Shown piece after piece: positions 6,667 to 62,776 of a DNA stretch of 64,000 bases. The notes below the pieces were generated by a model. That model ran no database searches. It was not told the origin of the DNA and worked only from the letters and a program-made list of their open reading frames with translations. Origin of the DNA: Pilasporangium apinafurcum (lineage: Eukaryota > Oomycota > Peronosporomycetes > Pythiales > Pythiaceae). A program made the translations under genes and the position numbers. The stretch lies in NCBI GenBank assembly GCA_001600495.1, contig BCKE01000057.1:176920-240919 (forward strand). The letters are read 5' to 3'. Position 1 is the first letter of the stretch. Every line of letters starts with the position of its first letter.

Positions 6667-7626
6667 ATGTTTTGGATCACGGCTGCACTTGTCGCTGCGG
6701 CTGCGTTGTTTGCAGGGGAAGCGCAGGCGGCGAGTCCTCGTGGTCCGATCATTGGCGTCTTCGCACAGCCACTCACCAATCACGGCGAATACATCGCAGC
6801 TTCTTATGTCAAATGGGTCGAAAGCGCAGGTGGACGGGTTGTGCCGATTCCATACAACGCACCAAAGGATTACCTAAAGGAGTTGGTACCTCAATTGAAC
6901 GGCTTGCTGTTCCCGGGTGGCGCTGCGCTTGTGAACGACCGTGCGGAGTATCTGTATCAATTGGCGTTGGAGTTGAATGACCAAGGGATCTATTATCCAC
7001 TGTGGGCCACATGCTTGGGATTTGAATGGCTTGTGCAATTGACGACAGATGATCTAAATTCCTTGAGCACTGGCCTGGACTCGATGAATATCTCACTACC
7101 GCTCAACTTCACCGACGCTGCGCCGAAGAGCCGCATGTTCAGTGGCGCTAGCCCGGAAATGTACAAATGGCTTGCGGAGAAACCGATCACGATGAACAAT
7201 CACGAGAACGGTATCACGGTTGAGCGATTCGCCAAGTACCCAAAACTGGAGGAGTTCTATACGGTGCTCTCGACCAATTATGATCGCAACAGACGACTGT
7301 TTGTTTCGGCGTTTGAAGCGAAGAAGTATCCAGTGTATGGCGTGCAATTTCACCCAGAGAAAAATAGCTTTGAGTACGGCGAATACGATGATGGCACGCC
7401 GTATGAAGTCGTTGATCACTCTGTGGAAGGTGTTGCGTCGGGTCAATATTTTGCCAATTTCTTCATCCAAGAAGCAAGGAAGAACGATCTCAAGTTTAAG
7501 GATCCAAAGATCGAGCGGAAGTCGCTCATTTACAACTACAAAACCTCGACATTCACCGACCCAGGCTTTGTGCAGTCGTATATCTTTAAGCATGACCAAG
7601 AGCTAAGCTATTGGCGAGTGCAGTAG
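6667..7626 (+). CDS. GGH: Gamma-glutamyl hydrolase (folate hydrolase, peptidase C26), secreted or vacuolar
   Basis: Single exon, 319 residues. The N-terminus is a signal peptide (MFWITAALVAAAALFAGEA). The mature protein has the class-I glutamine-amidotransferase-like fold of GGH: NGLLFPGG, the nucleophile in WATCLGFEW (Cys116) and the catalytic His in YGVQFHPEKN (His229). The family removes the poly-gamma-glutamate tail from folates in lysosomes or vacuoles, or outside the cell. Length and motif order match animal and plant GGH. Functionally it relates to the purine fusion enzyme at 38.7-42.2 kb, which uses a folate cofactor, but there is no linkage beyond being in the same window. Confidence 0.95.
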   Translation: MFWITAALVAAAALFAGEAQAASPRGPIIGVFAQPLTNHGEYIAASYVKWVESAGGRVVPIPYNAPKDYLKELVPQLNGLLFPGGAALVNDRAEYLYQLALELNDQGIYYPLWATCLGFEWLVQLTTDDLNSLSTGLDSMNISLPLNFTDAAPKSRMFSGASPEMYKWLAEKPITMNNHENGITVERFAKYPKLEEFYTVLSTNYDRNRRLFVSAFEAKKYPVYGVQFHPEKNSFEYGEYDDGTPYEVVDHSVEGVASGQYFANFFIQEARKNDLKFKDPKIERKSLIYNYKTSTFTDPGFVQSYIFKHDQELSYWRVQ

Positions 7627-29516: not shown

Positions 29517-30863
29517 TTAAGACGTCATAGAGCGTTCGCGACCGTGTTTGATGCAGTAGCCATTCTTCTGCACCCATTTCTCACAACCCGTTTCCTTGCA
29601 TTTGATCCCACCGCCATGACCACGACAAAGCCCTTTCGACTGGCTGCTCTTTGGACAGTCCGGGTGTTTACACCGCGCGCCACCGCCATGTGCCTTACAG
29701 AGTCCGCGCGATTGTGCAGTTTTCTCACAATCACCAAAGGAACACGGCGTGCCACCACCATGAGCGATGCATTTTCGGTTCGCCTGTGCGCTTTTATTGC
29801 AGTTCGGGTGCGAGCAGCGCTTCCCACCACCATGCGTACGGCAGAGCCCTCTCGACCGTGCAATGTTGTTACAATTGGCGTATCGACAGACACGGCCACT
29901 GCGCGGCGTTGCGACCATAGCTCCGTTGGCACGTTCGACACTGGAGCTAAGCAGCATTATCCCATCCCGTGGGTCCGTTTCCTCCTCAGAAGATAAGTTC
30001 GCACTCTCCGTGCCATCAAACGACATCCGTGCGGATGATCGGTCATGAAGGTACGAGACACTTGGAAGACTCTGCGAATACAGTGGCGACGAACTCGACA
30101 GCGAGGACGATGTGAGCGAACTGGAGAGAGACGGCAGTGACGACATATGCGCTGTTGTGGTCGCAATGGAACTTTCTGAAGTGGAACGAAGGGATAATGG
30201 TGGTGGACGTGCAGCAATACCCATCTTGAAAGACCCACCAGCGGCAGGTGAACCCGCACGGAACATGTTGAACGATGGTAGTCGTGGACTACTATCGACA
30301 GTGCTGCTCAGACTCGCACCAAACGGATTCGGAGATTTTATAGAGGAACCGATGGTCGTCTTTGCTGGGGCAGACAACGCCATATTGGCAAAAGGAGAGA
30401 TCGGCGGAATAGTCGGTGGGGTTTTCAGCGGATTCATCCGCATTGAGGAGTCAGAATACGAGAACGCGTGACTGACGAGCAACGGTCGCTTCTGTGGGTG
30501 ATGATCGTATTCATACTGATGAGACGAAGTAGCAGAGGGGCGAGGCAAGGGCGCAACAAATCGCATTTCTTCCTGTTGGTAGCGCAGCTGTTGTTCTAAC
30601 TGTGCTTGTTCCGCTAGTTCCTCCGCGGTCATTCCATATCCTTGAAATTGTTCTGGATGTTGTTGATATTGTTGTTGGTGTTGAAGCAGCGCTGTCCCAA
30701 GTGCGCCGCCTCCTCCTGGAGGGATTTTGATGGGACTAGTCAATTCTCGTACACGTTTGTTTGAGTCGACCAATACGAATTTTGGGACTCCAGGTTCACC
30801 TGAGGTATCGAGGGGTTCTGTCTTAATCGCCATCTCATCTTCGTGCGCACGTAGCCACTCCAT
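29517..30863 (-). CDS. WRKY19-like zinc-repeat protein, putative transcription regulator (448 aa)
   Basis: Single exon. The first ~300 residues are low-complexity (Gln, Ser, Pro-rich). The C-terminal ~115 residues hold five tandem cysteine/histidine units of the type CxxxxCxxxAxSRGLCxxHGGG, for example NNIARSRGLCRTHGGGKRC. These zinc-knuckle repeats are typical of proteins annotated WRKY transcription factor 19-like and are expanded in oomycetes; no true WRKY domain is present. The conserved repeats plus activation-like low-complexity regions suggest a nuclear regulator. Confidence 0.88.
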   Translation of the reverse strand: MEWLRAHEDEMAIKTEPLDTSGEPGVPKFVLVDSNKRVRELTSPIKIPPGGGGALGTALLQHQQQYQQHPEQFQGYGMTAEELAEQAQLEQQLRYQQEEMRFVAPLPRPSATSSHQYEYDHHPQKRPLLVSHAFSYSDSSMRMNPLKTPPTIPPISPFANMALSAPAKTTIGSSIKSPNPFGASLSSTVDSSPRLPSFNMFRAGSPAAGGSFKMGIAARPPPLSLRSTSESSIATTTAHMSSLPSLSSSLTSSSLSSSSPLYSQSLPSVSYLHDRSSARMSFDGTESANLSSEEETDPRDGIMLLSSSVERANGAMVATPRSGRVCRYANCNNIARSRGLCRTHGGGKRCSHPNCNKSAQANRKCIAHGGGTPCSFGDCEKTAQSRGLCKAHGGGARCKHPDCPKSSQSKGLCRGHGGGIKCKETGCEKWVQKNGYCIKHGRERSMTS

Positions 30864-38676: not shown

Positions 38677-41600
38677 TTAAGCCATGCTGCCGTGCAAGAT
38701 CACTTGCTCTCCATCTTCCGTCTTGGAAACGACCTTGCCCAAGTGGAAGACCTTCTCACCAGTTGCTTCAACCTGTTGTACCACTTCTTCAACATTTTCT
38801 TGTGGCAAGATAAGCACCATGCCAATACCGCAGTTAAATGTCCGGGCAAGTTCGTTGTTGGAGAGGTTTCCCATCTTTTGAAGCCACTTGAAAACTGGAG
38901 GAAGCTTCCAACTGCCACAGTCAATGTCGACGGCTAAGTCTTTCGACAGCACGCGTGGAATATTTTCGAGCAAACCGCCACCAGTAATATGAGCGAGGGC
39001 GTGAATCAAGCCTTTCTTCACGGTCGGCATTAGTTGCTGGACGTAAATCTTCGTAGGCGTTAACAAACTCTCTCCTAAGGTCTTGCCAGATTCAAATGGA
39101 GAGGCGTCACTGTATTGAAGACCGGACACTTCCACAAGTTTTCGCACAAGAGAGTAGCCGTTTGAGTGGATACCAGACGACGCTAACCCTAGCACAGTAT
39201 ACCCTGGCTGAACAGGCAATGGTAAAATAGCGCTCTTGCGAACAGCTCCAACACAGAAACCAGCCATATCGTAATCGCCATCGTGATACATTGACGGCAT
39301 TTCGGCTGTTTCACCACCAATGAGACCACAAAGAGACTGTCTGCAACCTTCGGCAATTCCTTTCACGACATCTGCGGCTTCGTTCACTTCCAATTTACCA
39401 CATGCATAATAGTCCAAAAAGAAGAGAGGCTCAGCACCTTGAACGATCAAATCGTTCACACACATGGCCACAAGATCGATTCCCACAGTGTCATGTTTCT
39501 TGGACAATTGCGCGACGCGCAACTTGGTCCCAACACCATCAGTGCATGCAACAAGCACGGTATCCTTGTCATAACCAGCTGCTTGAAGGTCAAACAGTCC
39601 GCCGAAACCACCCAAATCAGCATCACAGCCAACACGCACCGTTGACTTGCAGTATGGTTTAATCATGTCAACCAATTTGTTTCCAGCATCAATGCTCACA
39701 CCCGCATCCGCATACGTAATCTCCTTCTTCTGCGCGCTGTGCTTGATTAACATGTTCGTTTGAGCCAGTTTGATCGCATGGAGGAAAGCAGCACCTTCGA
39801 GTGGCTGCACACGAGCCTTCAATGTTTCTGCTGTATCGTTTGGCAAAACAGGGCATTTCAGCTGGACTGCAATTGGGCCAGCATCGACATCTTCAGTGAC
39901 GAAATGAATTGTGCAACCGCTCTGTGTCTTCTTTGCATCGATCACCGCTTGATGGACGGCCAAATCCATGCCACCAGCGAAGTCAGGAAGAAGTGAAGGA
40001 TGAACGTTCAGAACCTTGTTTTCCCATTCCTTGCAAAATTCAGCGGACAAGATACGCATGTATCCAATCAACAGCACCAAGTCAACGTTTTTGCTCTTCA
40101 ACACTTTCGACACCTCGGCATCAAAATCCGCCCGAGAAAGACCCTTGGAAGGTAATGCAACAGCTTCAATATTGTGCTTCTTGGCACGTTCCAAAATGCC
40201 AGCATCCGATTTGTTACTGATAACGATATCGATACTGGCATTGAGTTCACCAGCCTCAATAGCATCAATAATTGGCTGCATGCTGCTACCGCGAGTGGAA
40301 CCAAGAACAGCAAGCTTAATCTTTTTAGCTCCATGCAGTAGCCCCTTCAATCCAATATCAGAGCGGTACTGAACACCTTCAAAATGAATTTTCGAAACGC
40401 CGACATATGCACGCCGGATGGCATCTTCAAGGGTTGAACCATAGGCGCTAACAGCCAATACACGACCACCAGACGTAACCAGATTGTTAGCACTGTCCAG
40501 GGCAGTTCCGGCATGGAACACATCCACATCATCCAAACTGTTGGCAACATCAATACCGGTGATAATCTTTCCCTTAGGATAACTGTCTGGATATCCTTGA
40601 GAGGCCAGCACAACAGTCGCGGCGGATCCATGCTTCCAAGACACCATTGACGCATCCAGTTTGTTCTCAACACATGCTCGCATAATTTCAAACAAATCAC
40701 TGTTGAGTAGCGGGAGCACAACTTGGGTTTCGGGGTCGCCAAAACGGCAATTAAACTCCACAATTCTTGGCCCATGAGGAGTGAGCATGAAGCCCGGATA
40801 CAGCACACCAACGTACGGCATACCTTCTTTTTTCATAGCAGCAATAACGCGTTCAACAATTTCAATGCATTCGGCTTCAAGCTTGGGAGTTAAGCAAGGC
40901 GCACGAGCGTATGCGCCCATTCCTCCAGTGTTTGGTCCCTGGTCATTGTCAAAGATGCGCTTGTGGTCTTGAGCACCAGGCATCGTGATAACACGATCGC
41001 CATCTGAAAATGCTAACAAAGACACTTCTTCTCCGGTCATAAACTCTTCCAAGACCACCTCATCACCTGCAGATCCGAAGATTTTGTTCAGCATGACTTC
41101 CTTTAGGGCAACATGCGCTTCCTCTTTCGATTGTGGGATCAATACACCTTTACCAGCGGCAATACCAGACGCCTTAACGACGATGTTATGATCAATCGAA
41201 TCCAGGTATGCCTTGGCTTTCTCGTAGTCGGTAAAATTCTGATAGGCAGCAGTTGGGATGTTGTTGCGTTGCATGAAATCCTTCGAGAATGCCTTAGATC
41301 CTTCCAACTGGGCAGCCTTAGCGCTAGGACCGAACGTTGGGACGCCAGCAGCATTCATCTTGTCGGAGAGACCATCAATCAATGGAGCCTCTGGACCAAC
41401 AACGCAAAGGGATACTCCCTTGCTGATTGCAAACGCAATCAACTCATCGTGGTTGTCTACAGAAATGTTGACGTTCATAACGTTGCCACCAGCAGTGCCA
41501 GCATTACCTGGTGCAACGTAGATACGGCCAGTGGAGGCTGACTGTGCCAATTTCCAAGCAATAGCATGTTCTCTGCCTCCGCCGCCAACCACAAGCACGT

Positions 41601-42206
41601 CATGCAATACTTCTACACAAATAAAGACCAAATCATATTGTTAATCAGTATTACATTCATCTATGAATTGCATTTGAAGTGCATTGTCAGCAAGCACGTA
41701 CCATTTTCGCTGCGTAAACCTTGTGCAATCGATTCATCTAACTTGGCAAAGTAGGCGAACGCTTTCTCTGCAAGTTCACGTCTTTCCTTGATGGAAAACG
41801 CAATTGTACCATTGCTGGAGATCTTGGCATCAACACGCTCAATGTCTTGTTCGTCAATGACCACACTAATCTGCTTGTGGTTCCATGCAGCAGTGCGGAC
41901 AAAAGAGTACGGGCCAGTCACCCACTTCTCCAAACGAGTATGTTTGGTCTTGAATGATTCATTGGCAACATCGATGGCTGGTGGCGATGCGATCACCACT
42001 TCCACTCGGTCCGCAAGCATCAGTTGGACATCCGCTGGGGTGGCTACTGGGATGTGGGGGATCTTGGCTGCCACAAGGGCTTCACTGAGCGCCGAGGAGC
42101 AGAGCACCGCTACACGCAGTCCTTTAGACTGCAGTTGCTTCGCTGCCAGCACGAGCTTCTCCGAGGCGCTGCCTCCGCAGAGAACTGCGAGCGCCGTTGC
42201 GACCAT
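38677..42206 (-). CDS. GART: Multidomain purine synthesis enzyme: IMPCH-like + GARS + GART + AIRS (1146 aa)
   Basis: Model: complement(join(38677..41612, 41702..42206)), 1147 codons, phase 1 junction. Residues ~170-595 are GAR synthetase (PurD; VLVVGGGGREHA, then RFGDPETQV). Residues ~597-790 are GAR transformylase (PurN; HPSLLPDFAGG and the catalytic-loop region). Residues ~800-1146 are AIR synthetase (PurM; DGVGTKLRVAQL). These perform steps 2, 3 and 5 of purine synthesis. The order GARS-GART-AIRS differs from the animal order GARS-AIRS-GART. Residues 1-168 resemble the IMP-cyclohydrolase domain of PurH/ATIC (AAWNHKQISVVIDEQDIE, then RRELAEKAFAYFAKLDESIA). However, the Lys of the usual AAKNH is Trp, and the Asp of the IDIGG motif is absent, so this domain is probably not catalytic. 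Confidence 0.93.
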
Positions 42207-58931: not shown

Positions 58932-61157
58932 ATGAGTAAGATGAGTATGGTGAGTCTCGGTGTTGGTGCAGCGTCAGCCGCAGCCCTGTACGTTGTGCGT
59001 CTCCGTCGGTCGGTGTACTCGACGCTAGCGAAGCACGTGAAGCCGCCGGTACTGCCTAAGCGTCCGCACATGGTGCCGTTCGGTGCTGTTCCAGGCCAAA
59101 ATCGTGGTTCCGATCCCATGAAGCCCATCCTGTACATCGAAGACCCATATTTTTACGTACGTGACGATACGCGCAAGAATGAGGAAGTGCTGGAGCATCT
59201 ACGCAAGGAAAATGCATACACGGAACTCAAGACCAAGCATCTCACAAACGTGCGTGAGAACATTTACAACGAATTGCTTTCACATGTCCAGGAAACGGAT
59301 GAGGAGTACCCATATCCGCATGGTCCCTACCTATACTATACGCGCACGGAGAAAGGAAGTAGCTATGTCTATCATTGCCGCAAAGCCAAGACCGCAAACG
59401 CCCCTGAAGAACTTTTGCTAGATGAGAATTTCATCGCCAAGGGGCAAAATCACTGTCAAGTCACGCGCGTGCAGCCTAGTCCGGATCATAAATACTTGGC
59501 GTATATGGTGGATTTCAGTGGCTACGAGACATACACAGGCCATATCAAGGACTTGACGACGGGCGAATTACTGCCGGACCGTATTGAGAACATCTCGAGT
59601 CTGCAATGGGGAGCGGATTCTAGTGTGTTGTATTATGGCACGCAGGATGAGGCGCATCGTCAAGACAAGGTGTGGCGTCATCACGTGGGCAGCAGCAAGC
59701 CCAATGAGCTACTTTACACAGAGAATGACGAGCTCTTCAGTGCGTATTTCGGCAAGTCACGCAGTGGCAAGTACATGTTCTTGCAGTCGCAGAGCAGTGA
59801 GACGAGTGAAGTGTCGTTCATTGACTTGGAAAACCCATCGAAACCCATTGAGTTGATTGCCAAGCGTCAGAAAGGGATGTTGTACTCAGTGGATCATCAC
59901 GATGCAAATTTTTACATCGTTACGAACAAAGACAAGGCGACCAACTTCAAGTTGATGACTGTGCCTGTGGCGACGCCATCGATTGAGCACTGGTTCGACG
60001 TGTTCCCATATGATGAGAACATCAAGGTGGACGACATTGACTGCTTTGAGAACTTCATGGTCATGACTGGACGTCAAGGCGGGTTCAGTCAGATCTGGAT
60101 TGTGAATGTAGTGGGGCCAAACACGCACTCTCGCCATCGTATTGAGTTTAACGAGTCGAGTTATATGGTGTCAGGATGGATCAACAAGGACTATGACACT
60201 ACTAAGTACCGATTAATTTACTCGTCGATGACGACTCCACGGACGACTTACGATTATGATGTGAATACTCGCGAATTGACGTTTTTGAAGGAGAAACCAT
60301 GTCCAAATTACGATCGATCTTTGTACAAGTCGGAGCGATTGGAAGCCACGGCTACAGATGGAACGGCCATTCCCATCTCGATCGTCTACCGCGCCGACAA
60401 GCGCACGAAGGATCGCCAGGCATTACATCTCTATGGCTACGGGTCGTATGAAATCTCTATCGACCCGAGCTTTGTGTCATCTATCTTGCCGCTCTTAGAC
60501 CGTGGTGTGATTTACGCGATTGCACATATCCGTGGTGGTGGTGAAATGGGGCGAACATGGTATGAGAGTGCGAAATACAAGTCCAAGAAAAAAACATTCA
60601 CGGATTTCATCGACTGTGCCGAACACTTGATCAAGATTGGCTACACGAGTCCGAGTAAAATGACGTGCGAAGGACGCAGCGCTGGTGGGCTGCTTATGGG
60701 AGCGGTGCTTAATATGCGTCCAGATCTCTTTAAGGCAGCTATTGCGGGTGTCCCTTTCGTCGATGTGATGAATACGATGTCGGATGCCTCGATTCCATTG
60801 ACGACTGGCGAATGGGAAGAATGGGGTAACCCGAACGAACTCGAATATTTCCAGTACATGCTGAGCTACTCGCCGTATGAAAATGTGAAGCAGCAGGCGT
60901 ACCCGAATATCCTCATCACAAGTGGGCTGTATGATCCACGTGTTGCCTACTGGGAACCCACGAAGTGGGCCGCCAAGCTGCGTGATGTGAAGGCCGATCA
61001 GAATGAGATACTCTTGAAGATGGATCTGTCATCGGGCCACTTCAGCGCTAGCGATCGCTACCATTACCTGAAGGAGAAGGCGTTTGACTTGTCGTACTTG
61101 CTGGATCAACTCAGTCTGGTTAGCGAGGATGACAAGAAGCCTGCCCCCAAGAAGTAA
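58932..61157 (+). CDS. Oligopeptidase B-like serine peptidase (S9A), 741 aa
   Basis: Single exon; the first in-frame ATG is 58932. The N-terminal ~40 residues (MSKMSMVSLGVGAASAAALY, then Arg-rich) look like a mitochondrial presequence or membrane anchor. The seven-bladed propeller follows (PYFYVRDDTRKNEEVLEHL, LYYTRTEKGSSYVYHCRK). The alpha/beta-hydrolase domain has LYGYGSYEISIDPSF, AHIRGGGEMGRTWYES and the triad Ser583 (CEGRSAGG), Asp668 (SGLYDPRVAYWEPTKW) and His703 (SSGHFSASDRY). The N-terminal motifs fit oligopeptidase B rather than prolyl oligopeptidase. OpB cuts short peptides after Lys or Arg. Confidence 0.93.
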   Translation: MSKMSMVSLGVGAASAAALYVVRLRRSVYSTLAKHVKPPVLPKRPHMVPFGAVPGQNRGSDPMKPILYIEDPYFYVRDDTRKNEEVLEHLRKENAYTELKTKHLTNVRENIYNELLSHVQETDEEYPYPHGPYLYYTRTEKGSSYVYHCRKAKTANAPEELLLDENFIAKGQNHCQVTRVQPSPDHKYLAYMVDFSGYETYTGHIKDLTTGELLPDRIENISSLQWGADSSVLYYGTQDEAHRQDKVWRHHVGSSKPNELLYTENDELFSAYFGKSRSGKYMFLQSQSSETSEVSFIDLENPSKPIELIAKRQKGMLYSVDHHDANFYIVTNKDKATNFKLMTVPVATPSIEHWFDVFPYDENIKVDDIDCFENFMVMTGRQGGFSQIWIVNVVGPNTHSRHRIEFNESSYMVSGWINKDYDTTKYRLIYSSMTTPRTTYDYDVNTRELTFLKEKPCPNYDRSLYKSERLEATATDGTAIPISIVYRADKRTKDRQALHLYGYGSYEISIDPSFVSSILPLLDRGVIYAIAHIRGGGEMGRTWYESAKYKSKKKTFTDFIDCAEHLIKIGYTSPSKMTCEGRSAGGLLMGAVLNMRPDLFKAAIAGVPFVDVMNTMSDASIPLTTGEWEEWGNPNELEYFQYMLSYSPYENVKQQAYPNILITSGLYDPRVAYWEPTKWAAKLRDVKADQNEILLKMDLSSGHFSASDRYHYLKEKAFDLSYLLDQLSLVSEDDKKPAPKK

Positions 61158-61288: not shown

Positions 61289-62776
61289 TCACTTTCTTCG
61301 TTTTCGATTGCTATCTGTGTCCTCTACCTGTTTTGACGCTAATGCTTCCTTCTTCTCCTGTGCAATTTGGGCAAAAATGTGGAGTTCTTTCTTAAACGCC
61401 TCCCGCTCTGTCTGTTGGACTCCAAGAATTACAGAAGTGCAATCTTGGAGTGCTTGGCATAAATTAAACCGCGCGTTGTAAAAGTGCTTCATTGCGACAT
61501 CATCCTTCAGTGGCGAACAGATCTCGCTTTTTAATACTGTCTTTATGTGACCTGTGGAGACACAGACTTGAATTGAGTCCGATGGAATGTATTTGAGGAT
61601 GATACACCGCACATGACCCATCGCTTTGGGTTCGTTGCGATATATGGTGACGATATTCCCCACCGCAAATCGAATCCGCTCCAGTTGCTCTTGAAACTCT
61701 CGAAATATAAGGGTCTGCTTCTCCACGACCAATGGAGACCAGATTTGCCGAGGAAATTCTCTGGGTTTGGGAATAGCCGCCCATGGCACCAGAGCAACTT
61801 TCTTCTCAGATGGCGTACCTTTCGGTGGCTGTTCTTTCCTAGTTGTGATGCTGGATTCTGCTTTCCGCTCTTTGTCAGTAACCGTATTGGATAGTGATGG
61901 CGGCTTGACGAACTTTGGGACCTCTACCTGGAAGCTCTCACCGATTTTTGGTTTCTGAGGACCCAAACCAGACCGAATATCGTTGTTCTTTACAATCTCT
62001 AGCGCTTTTTTCGGCGATCGTCCTGGATAGTACTTAAAGCGGCATACGTAATACGGTTTGTCGCCCTTTTCACGAAACCCACGCTTGATCTCACGTTGAA
62101 TTTCTTCATATTCTTCAGGTGATACGACATGGCATACCCCCACCACGGCGTCGACATGATTCTTGTCTTTATGTGGTGTGAGGAACACTTCTTGGTCCAG
62201 AACGCCACCTTCAATGATGGCCAGCACTTCATCACGCACATCTTCTGGTTTGTAGTACCACTGCGCTGTGAAAGAGATCGCGCGATTCTGTGAGTACTGC
62301 ACATGACTAACTAGCGCCACGTAATGATTGTCCGGATCGCCAGAGTCTAGTAGCACGCAATCGCCCACTTCAATGTGCACGTACTCGCCTGGCGTGTCAT
62401 CGTCGTCGTCGCTGTCTGTCTCATTGTCATGCTTGGATCTATGTGCAGCTTTCCCATTGACTTCCTGCTTTTTAGTGGTTAATTGCAATTGTTTCTTCTT
62501 CGGTGGGGTCTTTTCCTTCAGCTTGGTGGCTCCTCGTGTACGGCGCCGCGTTTCCACCTCGCTCTCTGTGTCTGTGTCATCGATCACTATCTTCTGATTG
62601 GTGCGTGGACGCGTCACGCGCTTGGTTGCCAGTCCTGCCTCTGTTGCTTCATCTTTTTCAGCATCACCACCATGCTTCTGTCCGTCTACAATAGTGCTGC
62701 TGCTCTCTGGTGTCTGCTGTTTCTCTTCGGTCTCATTCGACGCAACATAATCACCATCACGATCAGCGGCTGCCAT
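61289..62776 (-). CDS. BAH-domain chromatin-associated protein (495 aa)
   Basis: Single exon. Residues 1-~130 are acidic/basic and disordered with a Lys-rich nuclear-localisation-like stretch (KEKTPPKKKQ). Residues ~130-280 form a BAH domain (YVHIEVGDCVLLDSGDPDNH, VALVSHVQ, QWYYKPEDV, VFLTPHKDKNHVDAVVG, YYVCRFKY). The C-terminal ~180 residues include a conserved-looking block (FAVGNIVTIYRNEPKAMGHV) without a known name, and a basic tail. BAH domains bind nucleosomes or modified histone tails. It converges with the peptidase gene 131 bases away. Confidence 0.88.
   Translation of the reverse strand: MAAADRDGDYVASNETEEKQQTPESSSTIVDGQKHGGDAEKDEATEAGLATKRVTRPRTNQKIVIDDTDTESEVETRRRTRGATKLKEKTPPKKKQLQLTTKKQEVNGKAAHRSKHDNETDSDDDDDTPGEYVHIEVGDCVLLDSGDPDNHYVALVSHVQYSQNRAISFTAQWYYKPEDVRDEVLAIIEGGVLDQEVFLTPHKDKNHVDAVVGVCHVVSPEEYEEIQREIKRGFREKGDKPYYVCRFKYYPGRSPKKALEIVKNNDIRSGLGPQKPKIGESFQVEVPKFVKPPSLSNTVTDKERKAESSITTRKEQPPKGTPSEKKVALVPWAAIPKPREFPRQIWSPLVVEKQTLIFREFQEQLERIRFAVGNIVTIYRNEPKAMGHVRCIILKYIPSDSIQVCVSTGHIKTVLKSEICSPLKDDVAMKHFYNARFNLCQALQDCTSVILGVQQTEREAFKKELHIFAQIAQEKKEALASKQVEDTDSNRKRRK

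Follow-up and report, generated by a model that had tools for sequence, protein, structure and literature searches.

In the animal trifunctional GART protein three catalytic domains share a single chain, and the one fish protein checked (P0035) has GARS, AIRS in two stretches and then GART, with nothing ahead of them. PurH/ATIC, in turn, has an N-terminal IMP cyclohydrolase (IMPCH) half whose partner is AICAR formyltransferase. The IMPCH fold likewise occurs without AICAR formyltransferase in archaeal stand-alone PurH2 (AF1811) and in ForH (6nko), which has a role in formycin synthesis. A halobacterial PurH1-PurN fusion joins the AICAR formyltransferase half to GART (PurN), as described in passages of PMC3261824. 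Here we describe a gene from a 64,000-nucleotide stretch of the oomycete Pilasporangium apinafurcum (contig BCKE01000057.1, positions 176,920 to 240,919, forward strand; the window, whose numbering is used below), in which the same three catalytic domains as in animal GART stand in the order front-GARS-GART-AIRS. Judging from profiles, alignment and a predicted structure, the front domain is an apparently dead homologue of the IMPCH half of PurH/ATIC. As in the halobacterial protein, a PurH half is thus combined with GART; in the present gene, however, the half concerned is the cyclohydrolase, and it has lost its catalytic residues.

The gene lies on the minus strand, and its two open frames, joined across the predicted intron, give a protein of 1146 residues. 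Its parts are as follows.

41702..42206, minus strand: exon 1, with the start codon and residues 1-168, the last codon split; IMPCH-derived front domain
41895..41897, minus strand: codon of R104, equivalent to Arg133 of human ATIC (coordinate by codon counting)
41883..41885, minus strand: codon of W108, which replaces the IMPCH catalytic Lys137 (AAW vs AAK; coordinate by codon counting from 42206)
41736..41738, minus strand: codon of D157, equivalent to Asp186 of human ATIC (coordinate by codon counting)
41613..41701, minus strand: intron of 89 nt, GT..AG, phase 1, where the front domain meets GARS, with in-frame stops inside
38677..41612, minus strand: exon 2 including the stop codon; GARS ~172-589, GART ~600-786 and AIRS ~799-1135 in residues of the fused protein

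The catalytic part of the protein is complete: it matches the NCBIfam models for PurD at 540 bits, PurN at 184 and PurM at 442, each above the curated cut-off. Pfam also finds the three domains and places them behind the front domain in the order GARS-GART-AIRS. The original prediction, made from the sequence alone, of a ~168-residue N-terminal domain followed by GARS, GART and AIRS is therefore borne out by the exon structure and by both databases; the animal order GARS-AIRS-GART that it cited, seen in the fish protein, is not followed here. With exon 2 as query against the 36.5-Mb genome assembly, the present copy was the only match. The nearest row in our tree is a Globisporangium polare protein (86% over 637 GARS-GART columns). 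Another oomycete-type relative, P0017, apparently read without splicing, leaves the family pattern just before EVLHD, and its sequence suggests that this break is at the same place as the intron here.

The IMPCH-like character that had been proposed for the front domain was confirmed in several ways. PF01808 matches it at E 2.1e-8, above the curated cut-off (Pfam), human ATIC at E 3e-6, and the PurH models at E 1.5e-11 and 9e-10, far under their whole-protein cut-offs because only ~75 residues match. Profile-profile comparison with PurH2 gave 98.6%. The predicted model is a folded domain starting at about residue 3, and a fold search with residues 1-168 recovered the MGS-like IMPCH fold along the whole domain, the fold that the original prediction had named as its structural check, with ForH (6nko), an IMPCH-like protein, among the best matches. 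The front domain and the IMPCH half of PurH/ATIC thus have in common the whole-domain fold, the RxxA motif, the C-terminal R-LA-KAF-D helix and an N-terminal place within a purine enzyme. A structure prediction for P0142 made without an alignment (predicted local distance difference test, pLDDT, 37.9) was uninformative and was not used.

The residues of catalysis, by contrast, are gone. Lys66, Tyr104, Asp125 and Lys137 are named as important in human PurH (PMC3261824, in part). In the front domain a block of ~31 residues opposite human residues 62-92, which includes the GRVKTLHP motif with Lys66, is deleted, Tyr104 is replaced by Pro, Asp125 by Val (V96) and Lys137 by Trp (W108), although it is the alignment that decides where Tyr104 falls and where exactly the gap begins and ends. 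The Trp in place of the AAKNH Lys and the missing IDIGG Asp had been noted before; the deletion and the loss of Tyr104 add to them. Among 71 N-terminal extensions extracted from homologues, the window's included, the four residues in the order above are kept in 0, 0, 2 and 0 (the two keepers of Asp125 are P0144 and P0138), as against all four in 14/14 IMPCH domains, 9 of them bacterial, picked regardless of motif. An earlier IMPCH set whose bacterial rows were chosen by the AAKN motif was biased and left out 2/9 loci (L085, L091). The genome also holds a separate full-length PurH at C4, the gene that the original prediction had proposed to locate, with 613 residues and its catalytic residues present. 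Fold, profile and residues together support the predicted dead IMPCH-like domain: the fold is conserved, the catalytic residues are lost across the clade and the domain is kept, as expected of a pseudoenzyme on sequence and model grounds. AF1811, for its part, does have enzymatic activity (PMC6797443, in part).

Each search that used the chain behind the front domain as query covers the best 120 matches. The front domain alone as query retrieved 13 proteins, of which the 12 named are all from oomycetes. Among the matches listed it is present in named Peronosporales/Pythiales, Albugo, Saprolegnia, Achlya, Thraustotheca and Aphanomyces and, outside oomycetes, in Phaeothamnion, Discosporangium and Tribonema (a short gene model); an MMETSP sequence labelled Dictyo.. 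also carries it, with 89 residues only. Against the database of 71, the oomycete profile found 19 extensions at E < 1e-3, not counting its 25 training rows or P0032, which is a second Plasmopara model. Of these 19, P0024 and P0033 are oomycete-like too. The PurH models matched five of seven extension pieces tested alone (P0142, P0138, P0144, P0156 and P0130; E 7e-15 to 3e-6) and did not match the other two, P0202 and P0164. The bolidophyte-like group C gave 4.6% (15 rows) or 1.3% (16 rows) when compared directly with IMPCH, 33.7% with the ochrophyte-type group, 58.4% and 50.0% with the oomycete fronts, and 82.9% (E 9e-6, 152 columns) with the combined profile, for which the controls gave 0.3% when reversed and <=0.2% in 20 column shuffles. 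These comparisons weakly suggest that the fronts of bolidophytes (Triparma) and similar algae join the family. Because Triparma rows are the only named ones in group C, we infer rather than read off a diatom affiliation, and the front domain is probably present in diatom-like algae. The search for the four-domain order in oomycetes and diatoms that the original prediction had proposed was therefore clearly positive in oomycetes and some ochrophytes, and more weakly so in bolidophyte and similar algae. In a tree built from 111 GARS-GART rows, all 30 that are oomycete-like group in a single clade (support 100), with P0024 and P0033 at its base. Taken together, the sequence comparisons indicate that the fusion is old and widespread, reaching from downy mildews to relatives of the brown algae, and we infer a single early gain in stramenopile evolution.

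Two positions stand out in what selection has kept. Arg133 (R104) is retained in 68/71 extensions and Asp186 (D157) in 64/71, having been present in 37/37 and 36/37, respectively, of a first chosen sample of 37 (13 of oomycete type, including P0024; 18 of ochrophyte type or unnamed, including the oomycete-like P0033 and selected at E < 1e-3; 6 bolidophyte-like). Both positions are assigned by alignment, and the assignment depends on it most heavily in divergent rows. Arg133 is missing in P0161-P0163, which have no significant similarity to the front profile and whose extensions are probably not this domain. Asp186 is missing also in P0147, whose gene model is without that stretch, and in P0158, P0173 and P0184. 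The two residues may pair inside the fold. Furthermore, every one of the 25 aligned oomycete fronts has Trp95, Phe102 and Trp108 at the positions of Ile, Met/Leu and Lys in IMPCH, which means that the former pocket has been remodelled in those 25; the basal P0024 and P0033 have neither Trp. Asp157 and the glycine loop of GARS are separated by 20-21 residues in 12/12 oomycetes counted and by 17-24 residues in 21/25 other rows (9, 26, 29 and 34 in the remainder), a spacing so short that most have no long flexible tether.

Since the catalytic parts are lost and the fold is kept, the front domain is probably a structural or docking part and not a catalyst. The explanation that we favor, at somewhat better than even chances, is that an IMPCH homologue was fused early in stramenopiles, lost catalysis and was retained as a non-catalytic structural module, probably for self-association or docking. 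The IMPCH half of PurH/ATIC would have been placed ahead of GARS-GART-AIRS and would then have lost its activity; its last helix continues into the GARS domain almost without a linker, and the domain would support self-association of the enzyme or docking of a partner, possibly the intact PurH or another enzyme of the purine pathway. ATIC is a dimer in which the IMPCH site is remote from the interface (PMC8780674, in part), and on this analogy we think that the front domain stabilizes or assembles the enzyme, with oligomerization and partner docking as its likely structural roles. A more specific form of this idea, in which the pseudo-IMP-cyclohydrolase has, ever since its fusion in an early stramenopile, had the assembly of a purine complex as its dedicated task and ties the last step of the pathway to steps 2, 3 and 5, for example through old IMPCH contacts with PurH, is speculative.

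Several observations weigh against a conserved structural module gained once. The front domain evolves faster than its partners, with a mean pairwise identity of 52.6% compared to 75.5, 78.2 and 80.0% for GARS, GART and AIRS, and with 11% invariant columns compared to 39-50% in the enzyme domains; any interface must therefore be loosely constrained in sequence. This faster change fits a structural rather than a catalytic role, or weak constraint. In addition, some relatives apparently lack the front domain. Its presence or absence takes 16 changes to explain on the 111-row tree, which therefore does not show one gain. Some of the rows scored as without it look like truncated gene models and others do not: P0015, P0016, P0121 and P0143 begin at GARS itself and P0017 just before GARS, perhaps owing to introns in unspliced calls.

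The same fast evolution, together with extreme divergence in bolidophyte-like algae and apparent absence in relatives such as P0154 (Nannochloropsis), P0119 and P0152, is what would be seen if the front domain were a relic of an old fusion, inactive and kept merely because the chain folds around it. We regard this as unlikely, given that the 25/25 oomycete fronts have similar lengths (159-187 residues) and 19 invariant positions, among them a Trp108 that is absent from all 14 IMPCHs, and that the Arg and Asp positions are conserved across groups. About as likely as a relic is an allosteric nucleotide sensor, which would bind IMP or another purine nucleotide and adjust GARS, GART or AIRS. The model for such a sensor is the MGS domain of carbamoyl-phosphate synthase, which lies at the C-terminal end of that enzyme and binds ligand there; the title of structure 1ce8 names IMP as the allosteric ligand. 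The front domain differs in being N-terminal and in having the extra IMPCH C-terminal helix. Pfam MGS (PF02142) gave no match to it at E up to 10, and MGS matches in the genome were limited to PurH and two other loci. Moreover, the IMPCH substrate-loop motifs SVSDK, STGGT, GRVKT, NLY and DIGG are lost, changed or deleted, and all 25 aligned oomycete fronts carry Trp in place of I124 and K137, which P0024 and P0033 do not; a remodelled ligand site with nucleotide sensing is possible. The original prediction had offered a dead IMPCH-like domain recruited for nucleotide sensing or assembly: the dead domain stands, recruitment for assembly agrees with the data and is the reading that we prefer, and allosteric sensing is weakened by the lost substrate-loop motifs and the Trp substitutions. 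The two other MGS-domain loci (L094, L095) lie in open frames of ~1500 residues, probably carbamoyl-phosphate synthases.

Continued IMP formation, or a related ring closure via other residues, is very improbable: PurH2 is said to work chiefly by positioning FAICAR and to contact the newly formed ring through its backbone (PMC6797443, in part), and ForH is IMPCH-like, but all four known catalytic residues and the ~31-residue block are missing and a complete PurH lies elsewhere in the genome. That exon 1 belongs to another gene, as the intron between the two parts might suggest, is scarcely credible, as the same join occurs in 24 other oomycete-type proteins (including P0020 and P0022) and in P0024, with longest contigs of only 4.3, 3.7 and 3.6 kb in the assemblies of P0020, P0022 and P0024, while N-terminal extensions joined to GARS also occur in the transcript-labelled P0184 and P0200 and in the apparently transcriptomic P0142, P0164 and P0178. 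In a separate gene model, P0036 (Aphanomyces astaci, 1596 residues), a Myb-like, zinc-finger-bearing protein is joined to front-GARS-GART-AIRS, and probably two adjoining genes were merged by annotation.

A plastid or mitochondrial leader was also considered as an explanation of the front domain and was rejected, because the model is folded from about residue 3 and because one homologue, P0141, has a leader-like stretch ahead of its front domain. This alga-like protein, near Phaeothamnion/Tribonema in the tree, begins with a hydrophobic leader (~1-60, with TATSFGARQP) that by eye resembles a plastid-targeting presequence. For diatoms, a nucleotide review (PMC6995639, in part) puts purine synthesis mostly in the cytosol; the passages concerned make no mention of the fusion.

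The arrangement had been thought to be without a known description, and we found none of the front domain in the main texts of the PubMed Central (PMC) papers searched. A 2009 catalogue of multifunctional fusions in Phytophthora sojae (PMC2705460) has in its Table 1, under enzymes that plants, human and yeast share, Ps108492, an "AIR synthase related protein" that may be the present gene; the passages concerned do not mention a cyclohydrolase-like front. The 2024 purine synthesis review (PMC10912719) describes the three-domain vertebrate enzyme, and the words "oomycete" and "pseudoenzyme" do not occur in the parts of it covered. PF01808 is annotated without comment in many database entries, one of them named PurH (P0023), and being visible to automatic annotation the domain is therefore undescribed, as far as we have seen, rather than undetected. 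To our knowledge, it is uncommon for a core metabolic enzyme to contain a pseudoenzyme domain. The present one occurs across a large group of eukaryotes, with algae and crop pathogens among them, may be a shared stramenopile trait, offers a testable handle on the assembly of purine-enzyme complexes outside animals, and is part of an essential enzyme, absent from the animal homologues seen.

Other purine genes came to light in the same searches. P0177 (1150 residues) is another purine fusion, listed with GARS, GART and two further Pfam domains but no AIRS; the extra domains are SAICAR synthetase and AIR carboxylase. Bacteria such as SAR324 and myxococcal metagenome-assembled genomes (MAGs) carry an AICAR formyltransferase that closely resembles the one in oomycetes (L003-L082), with matches beginning at PurH residue 184-228. 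Of 16 such genomes searched at E 1e-3 (G001-G016), 7 gave no IMP cyclohydrolase of the PurH2 type, which may mean that the enzyme is missing or that the MAGs are incomplete; Thermoclostridium caenicola, among these seven, is a named strain. Elsewhere in the window lie the following open reading frames.

6667-7623, plus strand: C26/glutamine amidotransferase-like protein
29520-30863, minus strand: WRKY19-type zinc finger protein
58932-61154, plus strand: prolyl oligopeptidase
61292-62776, minus strand: BAH-domain protein
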